From NCBI RefSeq assembly GCF_024347675.1, contig NZ_AP024882.1, positions 992,001 to 1,056,000 of the forward strand: a stretch of 64,000 bases of DNA, written 5' to 3'. Made by a program: the position numbers and the translations under genes. Below the pieces are notes generated by a model, which was given only the letters and a program-made list of their open reading frames with translations, did no database searches and had not been told where the DNA came from. The number at the start of each line of letters is the position of its first letter. Position 1 is the stretch's first letter. Shown here in pieces: positions 45,650-64,000 of the stretch. This DNA comes from Vibrio ishigakensis (lineage in GTDB: Bacteria; Pseudomonadota; Gammaproteobacteria; Enterobacterales; Vibrionaceae).

Positions 45650-46423
45650 ATGAAACAGTTTTTAAGTGAGTTAATTATAAATATGATAAATAAAATAAAA
45701 AGAAACTTTAATAAAATAAAATATAAGATTTTTAATGTGTTCGGTAGTGAGGATTATACTCAATTTATTGTTTTAACACGCTCGCGTACAGGTTCCAATA
45801 TGCTAATATCTAGGCTAGATTCTCACCCGAATATAAGAGCTGAGGGAGAAATATTCAATAGGCTAAATGGAATAGATTATAATAAAAAATTAAGAGATAT
45901 ACATGGAAAACAATCACCAAATATTAAAGCGTCTGGATTTAAAATATTTTACTATCAACCACTTGATATGCCCGAGAGTAAGTTGTGGGATGAATTAAAA
46001 AATAATAGTAAACTAAAAGTGGTTCAGCTTTGCAGGAAAAATTTACTAGAGGTGGCAGTATCAAGAAAAATCGCGGGACAAAGTAACGTTTGGGCTCAAA
46101 CTAAAGACATTAAAAAAACAAAGAATAGTGTAACTTTCACATTTGATGAATTGAAATCTGACTTTGAAAATACAACTGGTCAAGAAAGCAAAGGTTATCA
46201 AGATTTCGAAGGTAAAATATATAAAGTTTATTATGAAGATCTTGTCAGTCAAACTGATGAAGAGATGAATCGTATATTTGAATTTTTGAAAGTTGAAGAG
46301 TGCAAAACAGGTACTTTATTAAAGAAGCAAAATAATCAAACTTTAAGAGAAGTAATAGTTAATTATGACGACCTCAAAGATAAATTTAAGGGAACTCAAT
46401 GGGAAAACTTTTTTGTTGATTGA
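45650..46423 (+). CDS. Sulfotransferase (PAPS-dependent)
   Basis: The 257-residue protein has the PAPS-binding 5'-phosphosulfate loop (VLTRSRTGSNML, T43-N50) and the 3'-phosphate-binding segment (LCRKNLLEVAVSRKIA, about 127-142), the two key features of the Stf0/NodH-type sulfotransferase fold. A YYEDL-containing beta strand follows. It would transfer sulfate from PAPS to a hydroxyl of a sugar in the repeat unit. It is the first gene of the AT-rich core, just downstream of wzc. Codon and base use (very A/T-rich) differ from the flanking wza-wzc and rfb genes, suggesting separate origin. The acceptor is unknown. Confidence 0.82.
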   Translation: MKQFLSELIINMINKIKRNFNKIKYKIFNVFGSEDYTQFIVLTRSRTGSNMLISRLDSHPNIRAEGEIFNRLNGIDYNKKLRDIHGKQSPNIKASGFKIFYYQPLDMPESKLWDELKNNSKLKVVQLCRKNLLEVAVSRKIAGQSNVWAQTKDIKKTKNSVTFTFDELKSDFENTTGQESKGYQDFEGKIYKVYYEDLVSQTDEEMNRIFEFLKVEECKTGTLLKKQNNQTLREVIVNYDDLKDKFKGTQWENFFVD

Positions 46424-46548
46424 TTTATAACGTAAGTTTTAAAGAAGTACCAAATTATTTATAATTAATAAGCTATATTAAAAGTATAATATAAAATAGA
46501 AGGTTGGAAGATAGCAGCAGTTTAATATAACTACTTGCTCTAATTAGT

Positions 46549-47844
46549 ATGAATGATGTAAAACAACACGTTCCGATCTATAAGAAATTTTTCGGAACAT
46601 TCGGTGTTATGCTGATAAGTAAAACTATAGCTGTAGGTGCTGGGGTTATCTATGCGCGCTATTTAGGTCCTGAACAATTTGGTCTATATAGTTATATACT
46701 TTCGATAATCACTGTATCTACTCTTCCAATAGTCGCTGGTTTACCAAATCTGTTAACGAGAGAAGTTGCAAATTACCAATTAGAAAAAAATTGGTCTAGA
46801 TTACACGGTGTAATAAAATGGTCTCGCTTGTATGTATTTACTCTATCCATACTTACAATAGTGATACTTCTTTTAGGAATTTACACGGGGTTTTTTGATA
46901 CTATAGTTAGCAGTTTAATCATTATTGGTGTTTTTCTTGTGCCAATAAGAGGTTTATTAACTCAGCAAAGCGCGATTCTTAATGGTTTCAGGTGCCCAAT
47001 ACTTGCACAGCTTCCAAGTCAAATAATAACTCCTTTTATAACTTTAATTTCTCTATGTCTTATCATTTTGTTTTATAAGGTCGATATTAAAGCTGGAGAG
47101 TTGTTGTCAATCACAGTATTTTCATCTCTTGTAGGATTGCTTTGTAGCTACAAATTCATAGTTAGGGCTATCAAACATAAAGCTAGGGTTAGTGAAGCAA
47201 AGTATGAGATCAGGAGCTGGCACAAAGCTCTATTGCCTTTCACGATGTTAGCATTTATTGGTACGTTGAATACGGAAATAGTTAGTGTTCTTATAGGTTA
47301 CATAGTGGGCCATGAGCATGTCGGCTATTTTAAGGTTGCTATGCAAGCAATTCTGCTTGTGTCTTTAGCTTTAACAGCGATCAACACCGTTATTATGCCA
47401 AATGTAGCGCGTCTTTATAAAAAAGGCGACCTAGTAAGTACACAACAACTACTTACAAAAAGTGTTCGTTTAAGTACACTAATTTCACTGCCTATTATAT
47501 TATTTCTTTTAGTTTTTGGAGACACTGCTATAGATTTCTTGTTCGGAAGTGAGTATTTACCGGCATACCCAATTCTGATAGTACTTTGTATAGGCCAACT
47601 TTGTGGAGTTTGCATGGGTTCAGTGGGGCTTGTGCTAAATATGACAGGCAATGAAAAGGAAACGCTGAAATTCATTATAATTACGCTATTACTAAATGTG
47701 ATTTTGTTAACTATACTTTTACCGCATTTCGGCGCCCTTGGTGGTGCTTATTCTGTATCTATTTGCTTAGTGTTTCTTAACACTACGTTGGCAGTTAAAA
47801 CAAGAAATATTACGGGACTGAAAACTTGGTTTGTTCTTAAATAA
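46549..47844 (+). CDS. wzx: Wzx-type polysaccharide repeat-unit flippase
   Basis: The 431-residue protein is predicted to span the membrane about 12 times (hydrophobic segments throughout; opening YKKFFGTFGVMLISKTIAVG then ARYLGPEQFGLYSYILS). It matches the polysaccharide transporter/MATE-like layout, with the conserved YARYLGPEQFG motif near residue 36. It would flip the undecaprenyl-linked repeat unit to the periplasm. Together with the EpsG-like polymerase and wza-wzc this defines a Wzx/Wzy pathway. Two bases separate it from the following SGNH gene. Confidence 0.88.
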   Translation: MNDVKQHVPIYKKFFGTFGVMLISKTIAVGAGVIYARYLGPEQFGLYSYILSIITVSTLPIVAGLPNLLTREVANYQLEKNWSRLHGVIKWSRLYVFTLSILTIVILLLGIYTGFFDTIVSSLIIIGVFLVPIRGLLTQQSAILNGFRCPILAQLPSQIITPFITLISLCLIILFYKVDIKAGELLSITVFSSLVGLLCSYKFIVRAIKHKARVSEAKYEIRSWHKALLPFTMLAFIGTLNTEIVSVLIGYIVGHEHVGYFKVAMQAILLVSLALTAINTVIMPNVARLYKKGDLVSTQQLLTKSVRLSTLISLPIILFLLVFGDTAIDFLFGSEYLPAYPILIVLCIGQLCGVCMGSVGLVLNMTGNEKETLKFIIITLLLNVILLTILLPHFGALGGAYSVSICLVFLNTTLAVKTRNITGLKTWFVLK

Positions 47845-47861
47845 ATTTGTTGGTAAACAAG

Positions 47862-62613: not shown

Positions 62614-63581
62614 TGCATTACGACGTATTTAATGGCGATGCCGATGGCATCATTGCGCTACTACAACTTCGCTTTGCTGAGCCAAAAGAGTCAACACTGA
62701 TTACCGGTGTGAAGCGTGACATCAAACTGCTTGAGCAAGTGGATGGCGATAAAGCAACTTCGGTTACGGCGCTGGATATCTCGATGGAGAAAAACCTGCC
62801 CGAGCTTGAAGGCCTGCTAGCCAAAGATGTTTCTGTATTTTACTGCGACCATCACCGCAGCGGTGATATTCCTCAGTCAGACAAGCTTGAAGCGCTTATC
62901 GATTTAGATGCTGAAGTGTGCACCAGTTTGCTAATTAACCAAAAGCTAGGCGGTCAATACGCAAAGTGGGCTGTCGCAGCGGCGTTTGGTGACAACCTGT
63001 TTGCTTCAGCAGAGAAGCTAGCCACTGAAATTGGTTTGTCAGACTCAGAGACTGAGTTCTTAAAAGAGCTCGGTACACTCATCAACTACAACGGTTATGG
63101 TGCCAGTCTTGAAGACCTGCACATTGAGCCGGCTGAATTGTACCGTCAATTAAGTCAGTTTGAAGACCCACTAGCGCTGCTTGATGACGAAACTTCACCT
63201 TATCACGTGCTCAAGGCTGGTTATGCGCTAGACCATGCAAAAGTTACCAGTATTGAACCGTCGCACAGTGACGCACAATGCAAAGTGTTTGAACTGCCGT
63301 GTGAAGCATGGGCACGCCGTATCAGTGGTGTGTTTGGTAATGAGCTTGCCAATCAAAGCCCAGAGTTGGCCCATGGCGTGTTAACGCTCAACCCAAATCA
63401 TCAAGATTACACGGTAAGCGTGCGTGCACCGCTGAACAACCGTATTGGCGCCGATGAGATTTGCTCGTCTTTCCCAACGGGGGGAGGGCGCAAAGCGGCT
63501 GCGGGTATCAACCAATTACCAAAAGATGATGTAGCCAAGTTCACGCAAGTGCTGAGTGATTTCTACAAGTCATCCAACTAA
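62613..63581 (+). CDS. DHH/DHHA1 family phosphoesterase, possible PAP phosphatase
   Basis: The 322-residue protein starts with VFNGDADGIIALLQL (DHH motif I, near 5-20), followed by TALDIS (motif II), FYCDHHRSGD (motif III, the DHH) and AAFGDN (motif IV); a DHHA1-like C-terminus ends with FPTGGGRKAAAG. The family contains NrnA-type enzymes that degrade 3'-phosphoadenosine 5'-phosphate (PAP) and short RNAs, and RecJ-type nucleases. Its start overlaps cysC by one base, so it is tightly coupled to sulfate activation. PAP is the by-product of sulfotransfer, so removal of PAP is the most economical role. Not proven: a nanoRNase or unrelated cyclic-nucleotide enzyme is possible. Confidence 0.82.
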   Translation: MHYDVFNGDADGIIALLQLRFAEPKESTLITGVKRDIKLLEQVDGDKATSVTALDISMEKNLPELEGLLAKDVSVFYCDHHRSGDIPQSDKLEALIDLDAEVCTSLLINQKLGGQYAKWAVAAAFGDNLFASAEKLATEIGLSDSETEFLKELGTLINYNGYGASLEDLHIEPAELYRQLSQFEDPLALLDDETSPYHVLKAGYALDHAKVTSIEPSHSDAQCKVFELPCEAWARRISGVFGNELANQSPELAHGVLTLNPNHQDYTVSVRAPLNNRIGADEICSSFPTGGGRKAAAGINQLPKDDVAKFTQVLSDFYKSSN

Positions 63582-63669
63582 GAAATTAAGTGCCCGCAAA
63601 TGCGAGCACAGATAACAGAATTTAGGTGAGGGCAGGTAAGCCCCACTCAAAATACATTAGGAGAGTGTT

Positions 63670-64000
63670 ATGTCTCATAGCTCTGAGCTAATCGCAACGG
63701 ATATCGAAGGGTATCTGAAAGTACATGAAAACAAAGACCTGCTGCGCTTTTTAACCTGCGGCAACGTGGATGACGGTAAGTCTACTCTGATTGGTCGTCT
63801 GCTTTACGATTCAAAGCTGATTTACGAAGACCAAATGGCAGCGATTGAGAAAGACTCTCAAAAGTTCAACACCACTGACGAAGCGTTTGACCTAGCTCTG
63901 CTAGTAGACGGTCTCCAGTCTGAACGTGAGCAAGGCATCACTATTGATGTGGCGTATCGCTACTTCTCAACGGATAAGCGTAAGTTCATCATCGCAGACA
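63670..64000 (+). CDS. cysN: Sulfate adenylyltransferase subunit 1 (3' truncated by window end)
   Basis: This is the GTP-driven regulatory subunit of ATP sulfurylase. Only 110 residues are visible. They contain the GTPase G1 loop [18 protein letters not shown] (near residues 31-48) and the switch region [16 protein letters not shown], the usual opening of CysN/NodQ. ATG 63670 is preceded by TAGGAGAG. It is separated from the DHH gene by 88 bases, whereas classical cysDN are adjacent; gene order here is cysD-cysC-DHH-cysN. The CysC domain fusion seen in NodQ cannot be checked. Confidence 0.93.

Follow-up and report, generated by a model that had tools for sequence, protein, structure and literature searches.

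Vibrio sp. KMM 8419 has a sulfated capsule, Rha3S4Ac-Glc as determined by nuclear magnetic resonance, and its capsule locus is described as holding second copies of cysC, cysN and cysD (PMC11641403). Its authors report having found no public genome with the same or a similar organization of the capsule locus (PMC11641403). The sulfated-capsule locus described for Cobetia marina KMM 1449 contains a sulfate permease, cysD, cysN/C and cysQ (PMC11766843). Here we describe a locus of this kind in Vibrio ishigakensis, located in a window of 64,000 nt (contig C2, positions 992001-1056000, of a 4.79 Mb genome of two contigs, C1 and C2). In the window, cysD, cysC, a DHH-type gene and cysN end a polysaccharide locus that includes two sulfotransferase genes; CysD, CysN and CysC belong to the families that make 3’-phosphoadenosine 5’-phosphosulfate (PAPS). 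Since a sulfated Vibrio capsule with cysDNC is already published, this kind of locus is already known. What we did not find in print is a duplicated cassette as the sole source of PAPS, its DHH partner and the genus-wide association reported below; searches of the open-licence literature showed no title or abstract opening about a displaced canonical operon or about DHH genes at loci of this type.

As in KMM 8419, cysC/N/D, sulfotransferases and rhamnose genes share a Vibrio polysaccharide locus. The KMM 8419 cysC/N/D genes are described as second copies, whereas in V. ishigakensis two island copies and no canonical set were found; the exporter is of the ATP-binding cassette (ABC) type there and Wzx/Wzy here, and the main text of that paper does not mention “DHH” (PMC11641403). 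The Cobetia locus likewise combines sulfate-activation genes with a gene for a phosphatase of 3’-phosphoadenosine 5’-phosphate (PAP), but as described its cysN and cysC are fused and its PAP phosphatase is CysQ, whereas the V. ishigakensis CysC is unfused and the corresponding place is taken by a DHH protein (PMC11766843). The canonical Vibrio operon, cysD-cysN-SLC13-cysC, likewise encodes the three enzymes along with a sulfate-type transporter, but differs in gene order and neighbors and lacks a DHH gene; its CysN is 56-59% identical to the window CysN and falls on a separate tree branch. NodPQ of Sinorhizobium meliloti are encoded by duplicated, near-identical sulfate-activation genes that serve sulfation; NodQ fuses CysN with CysC, and that species also retains a housekeeping set apart from NodPQ. 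The duplication is alike in V. ishigakensis, but neither a retained housekeeping set nor a NodQ-like fusion was found, as cysC and cysN in the window are separate genes.

Duplicated cassettes and the empty canonical site

The sulfate-activation genes of the window lie on the plus strand directly after rmlC (rfbC; 60103..60654, PF00908), where an earlier note made from the sequence had placed them, and all pass NCBIfam cut-offs. They are cysD (61045..61959; TIGR02039, 531 bits against a cut-off of 397), cysC (61966..62613; 215 aa; TIGR00455, 285 bits against 139) and cysN (63670..64000, extending beyond the window to 65079; 469 aa; TIGR02034, 640 bits against 336 for the full-length protein). 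The note had overlooked a DHH/DHHA1 phosphoesterase gene, a predicted PAP phosphatase, between cysC and cysN (62613..63581). The most likely start of cysD is 61045, within an open reading frame (ORF) that opens at 60778. Among the best 80 loci, the best named match to CysC was from V. hangzhouensis (95%). Upstream of cysD, comparison with the second cassette revealed a relic of an SLC13 transporter gene, its last 107 bases (60918..61024). A scan of the rmlC-cysD interval for plus-strand terminator-like sites reported none.

A second cassette, SLC13-cysD-cysC-DHH-cysN, complete with a sulfate-type transporter gene, lies 40 kb downstream. It heads an ABC-type polysaccharide island with wzm/wzt-type, Stealth and other polysaccharide genes. 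The SLC13 relic 5’ of copy 1 indicates that copy 1 descended from an operon like copy 2. The copies are 89.3% identical across 4168 gap-free bases, and their proteins are more similar still: CysC is 98.1% identical, DHH 95.0% and CysN 98.5%. For CysD, 1 of 305 positions differs (304 residues plus the stop), with third positions changed at 82 of 305. Synonymous divergence (dS) was 0.55-0.77 and dN/dS 0.01-0.05 for cysC, DHH and cysN, the pattern expected of two long-kept working copies. In the relic and spacer (60918-61044), only 9 of 127 bases differ from copy 2, a rate exceeded by the third positions of the four cassette genes (27-31%). This low divergence may reflect a cysD promoter inside the segment, or exchange of DNA between the copies. 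Between the two polysaccharide islands (C2:1059731-1066811), integrase-like and further recombinase-like ORFs were recognizable by sequence, and these could be a route for island exchange.

Genome searches gave two matches each for cysC and cysN-type genes, every one in a polysaccharide island; weaker cysN matches (24-32% identity) were taken to be GTPases of other kinds. The three PF01507 matches comprise the two cysD genes and cysH. Sequence and profile searches of both contigs found no third cysD, cysN or cysC, and a genome search found no Sat-type ATP sulfurylase. The cysJIH genes stand by themselves on the other contig (C1:2677521-2681810; cysI and cysJ named by sequence).

We compared canonical loci of relatives with the corresponding site of this genome. 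In all 18 fetched canonical loci, cysD, cysN and cysC form a single run in the order cysD-cysN-SLC13-cysC, although the intervening SLC13 gene gave no match in three of them (L119, L120 and L127). The site is marked by six genes that flank the operon in L121 or L130: at least one occurs in each of the 18 canonical loci and none in 41 cassette loci. A SUMT-type gene, directly 5’ of cysD in L130, is present in 13/18 canonical and 0/41 cassette loci, and the second gene past cysC in 17/18 and 0/41, respectively. In V. ishigakensis the SUMT-type gene (C1:249129-249965) abuts C1:249967-250461, the counterpart of that second gene, while cysD, cysN, SLC13, cysC and the first gene past cysC are absent from the site. 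A search of the genome with the gene adjoining canonical cysC gave no match, though an empty answer from this search means little; a LolC-type gene farther along the canonical neighborhood is present. The canonical cysDN-SLC13-cysC operon thus appears to have been lost.

These results bear on the picture of a self-contained module, dedicated to sulfation, that the earlier note had drawn. The search for a second cysDNC set that it had proposed did turn one up, but the set is another cassette, 89% identical and 40 kb on, and not a separate assimilation set. With no other cysD/N/C, no Sat, cysJIH on the other contig and an empty canonical site, a dedicated PAPS set beside a separate assimilation set is rejected for this genome. 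The note had also held that a sole cysDNC set followed by cysHIJ would speak against its reading; the cassettes are the only kind of cysDNC set found here, but the genes downstream are not cysHIJ. Because the canonical operon is apparently lost, both cassettes should also supply PAPS to CysH. V. vulnificus cysD, cysN, cysC and cysH mutants are reported to need cysteine (PMC6113621), and V. ishigakensis would be expected to need it too if both cassettes were lost.

Sulfotransferases and the DHH-type protein

Both sulfotransferase ORFs that the earlier note had placed in the Wzx/Wzy locus pass Pfam cut-offs. Sulfotransferase 1 (45650..46423, plus strand) scored 35.0 bits for PF13469 (cut-off 27) and 33.5 bits for PF00685 (cut-off 22); sulfotransferase 2 (48662..49597, plus strand) scored 94.4 and 25.1 bits. 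The note had called them unrelated, and BLASTP indeed gave no significant match between them (E 0.17), but they have their Pfam families in common and we prefer “distant”. Sulfotransferase 2 matched the structure of the CurM sulfotransferase (4gbm) with E 1.9e-10. For sulfotransferase 1, PDB sequence searches gave nothing useful, and its AlphaFold model, built on a two-row alignment, had a predicted local distance difference test score (pLDDT) of 45.3. A genome-wide PF13469 search at E 0.001 gave two matches, both inside the window; the piece of sulfotransferase 1 matched in that search scored 23.5 bits, below the cut-off, which the full-length protein exceeds. The expected lack of a signal peptide held up by hydropathy, though no signal-peptide predictor was used: no 19-residue window exceeded 0.83 in either protein, and neither a hydrophobic signal nor a membrane helix was seen.

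In a metagenome-assembled genome of Parafilimonas (Bacteroidota; L195), a gene close to cysC encodes a relative of sulfotransferase 1 (28% in BLAST), and an additional ORF with a sulfotransferase-like P-loop motif also lies near cysC. Proteins with a P-loop-like HKTGTT motif are encoded near PAPS cassettes at L005:9176-10321 and in L092, L096, L102 and L105. Pfam and NCBIfam sulfotransferase profiles gave no matches to them; judged by the motif, they could be unclassified sulfotransferases.

The DHH-type protein was modeled with high confidence (pLDDT 95.5) as a two-domain fold. Its nearest solved structure, first by Foldseek and VIA and tied with RecJ, was 8a8k, a DHH-family PAP phosphatase from the archaeon Methanothermococcus thermolithotrophicus (PMC10322725). 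Pfam matches to DHH (E 0.016) and DHHA1 (E 0.019) were below cut-off, and PDB sequence searches gave nothing useful. The metal-site residues of motifs I-IV (D9, D11, D55, D79-H80-H81 and D127) are invariant in 30 DHH sequences, as are R271, the candidate substrate-site Arg, and G290-G292; R293 stands where the GGG(H/K) motif has H or K. These motifs were compared by eye with the residues named for the P. yayanosii pApase in its published description. From sequence and model, we predict that the cassette DHH protein is a PAP phosphatase, which nominates for this function a Vibrio protein with no Pfam match above cut-off.

Two stronger propositions about this protein were rejected. It is not the genus’ only candidate PAP phosphatase, as a CysQ-family match was present in 196/196 genomes (above cut-off in 189), at C1:134654 in V. 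ishigakensis. Neither is it a marker of the cassette, as the gene occurs in 193/196 genomes, adjoins cysC in at least 42 and was seen standing alone. The DHH ORFs of genomes G268 and G431 are intact (319 residues).

Non-canonical cysC across Vibrio and the readings compared

To place the cassette in the genus, we classified the best 150 of 234 cysC matches, the other 84 all being weaker; V. ishigakensis itself is included in every count. cysC was present in 194/196 Vibrio genomes. Fifty-six matches were non-canonical, 45 by DHH adjacency among the matches listed and 11 by gene order in fetched loci. The other 94 were canonical, 25 as read in fetched loci and the rest by identity and because they were not among the DHH matches listed. 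Non-canonical cysC therefore numbers at least 56, in at least 52/196 genomes. Among the matches listed, a PF13469 gene lies inside 25 kb of 17/56 non-canonical and 0/94 canonical cysC genes (Fisher p 9e-9), and PF13469 occurs in 25/52 genomes with non-canonical cysC and 14/144 without (p 2.5e-8). Twenty genomes, including this one, have only non-canonical cysC among the matches listed; some are draft assemblies, and one genome has a completeness of 73%. Polysaccharide neighbors were sought with genes of the V. ishigakensis genome only (at least 35% identity, within about 10 kb), and at least one was found at 32/41 cassette loci and 0/18 canonical loci; the cassette loci examined were for the most part top-scoring ones, not a random sample.

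In a quick, midpoint-rooted CysN tree (126 rows, 117 distinct, with long-branch warnings), cassette-type CysN formed one branch of 58 rows with an SH-like approximate likelihood ratio test (SH-aLRT) value of 98, and canonical CysN stood apart (100). The two V. ishigakensis copies are sisters (SH-aLRT 99), and two of 39 “second” CysN rows (L115 and L117) fell outside the main cassette branch. That branch includes Photobacterium, Thaumasiovibrio, Moritella, Alginatibacterium and Paraferrimonas, a spread that suggests transfer between families. A further set type, cysD-cysN-SLC13-cysC-DHH, occurs in relatives of V. halioticoli and in several Shewanella.

The likeliest reading, which we consider probable on the sequence evidence, is a polysaccharide-sulfation cassette that also took over cysteine synthesis. 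CysDN (ATP sulfurylase) and then CysC (adenosine 5’-phosphosulfate kinase), acting as known for their families, would produce PAPS, with which the two cytoplasmic sulfotransferases would sulfate a lipid-linked, probably rhamnose-containing repeat unit ahead of its flipping by Wzx. Inhibitory PAP would be removed by the DHH protein, CysQ or both, and the same PAPS from both cassettes would feed CysH for cysteine. The cassette itself would derive from an SLC13-cysD-cysC-DHH-cysN operon of the type intact 40 kb downstream. Joint action of the sulfotransferases with the PAPS genes, as the earlier note had proposed, is well supported, mostly by comparison with the Vibrio loci and KMM 8419. Surface-coat sulfation and cysteine synthesis probably draw on the same genes, and a core metabolic step is apparently confined to surface-polysaccharide islands. 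In a broader form, to which we give about even chances, the transferable SLC13-cysD-cysC-DHH-cysN cassette, bringing its own DHH-type PAP phosphatase, spreads via polysaccharide islands of marine Gammaproteobacteria and has displaced the housekeeping operon in some species including this one, tying cysteine synthesis to a variable surface-antigen island. Location of a non-canonical PAPS operon among polysaccharide genes might serve as a simple genomic marker for sulfated polysaccharides in bacteria; the earlier note called sulfated bacterial capsules rare.

Several observations fit a sulfation cassette poorly. Thirty-nine of the 56 non-canonical cysC genes among the matches listed have no PF13469 gene inside 25 kb, including cysC of copy 2, whose nearest is 53.6 kb off, and 9/41 cassette loci had no polysaccharide gene match. 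The DHH gene is missing from seven non-canonical sets (L087, L092, L137, L222, L223, L225 and L227), in two pieces in L095 and short in L100; with CysQ also present in V. ishigakensis, the DHH protein is not essential. Transcription of the locus as a single unit is uncertain, as a terminator-like hairpin lies between wzc and sulfotransferase 1 (45409-45428); terminator-like sites overall were about as frequent as expected by chance (12 against 11.6). An ops element directly precedes the cassette in just 1/41 relatives. Lastly, one non-canonical set, SLC13-cysD-cysC-cysN in L227 (G395:C2:1226501-1246500), adjoins a cysH homologue (60%) and by its gene content looks assimilatory.

The L227 arrangement favors an account in which the cassettes are an assimilation operon recombined into the islands, with the adjoining sulfotransferases incidental or inactive. 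This would suit a genome in which the cassettes are the only sulfate-activation genes found, and the cysteine requirement reported for V. vulnificus cysD/N/C/H mutants (PMC6113621). Yet cysJIH stayed elsewhere, both copies have been retained under constraint, many relatives hold the canonical operon together with an island cassette, and, among the matches listed, PF13469 lies near cysC of the non-canonical kind only; we regard this account as unlikely. A somewhat less unlikely alternative is that sulfation is real but mainly targets something other than the Wzy-type capsule, either the lipopolysaccharide O-antigen or the polymer that the downstream island exports by its ABC system. The island led by copy 2 contains wzm/wzt-type and Stealth genes and encodes a P-loop HKTGTT protein, and capsule and O-antigen genes are described as joined in the KMM 8419 locus (PMC11641403). 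Both PF13469 matches of the genome, however, are inside the wza-wzb-wzc-wzx-wzy locus. Finally, extra PAPS could act mainly as a signal for polysaccharide or biofilm expression, on the model of the PAPS/cyclic di-GMP circuit of V. vulnificus, in which cysD and cysC mutants are reported to fail to induce brp and BrpT to activate cysDNTC (PMC6113621). Such a role would leave unexplained both the linkage to sulfotransferases and the two sulfotransferases of this locus, and we think it highly improbable.

The remainder of the polysaccharide locus

All genes of the locus lie on the plus strand. A gene for a WbaP-type initiating sugar-phosphate transferase (39488..40711, PF02397) precedes GGCGGTAGCGT (41274..41284), which we take to be an ops (RfaH-type) element with the corresponding role, 58 bp 5’ of wza. 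It was the one exact match among three with at most one mismatch, against a chance expectation of 1.9. In cassette copy 2, the start of a second GGCGGTAGCGTG is 40 bp upstream of the SLC13 ORF. The idea that an ops element generally precedes the cassette was rejected (1/41 relatives, 0/18 canonical loci and 0/74 named loci scored).

The gene run that starts at this element opens with wza for polysaccharide export (41343..42626, NF011658), the phosphatase gene wzb (42651..43076; named by sequence and position, without family assignment) and wzc for a tyrosine autokinase and chain-length protein (43162..45345). Wzc passed TIGR01007 (178 bits, cut-off 108); its best profile, NF008568, scored 885 bits, below the cut-off of 1068. 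Sulfotransferase 1 is followed by the wzx flippase gene (46549..47844; PF13440, PF01943) and a gene for an SGNH-like protein, possibly an esterase or acyltransferase (47847..48551), a reading from the sequence itself, as a profile search of Pfam gave no matches. After sulfotransferase 2 come glycosyltransferase genes, a wzy-type polymerase gene of the EpsG family (51535..52575, PF14897), a gene for a hexapeptide acetyltransferase-type protein (54532..55092, PF00132) and rmlB, rmlA, rmlD and rmlC for dTDP-L-rhamnose (57288..60654; the first three named by sequence), which lead into cysD.

Upstream of the locus, two minus-strand ORFs (36899-37947) resemble the halves of an IS3-type transposase. 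Farther upstream, positions 5657-9380 of the window hold a long array of mutually similar repeats (66-70% identity), apparently a large repeat protein.

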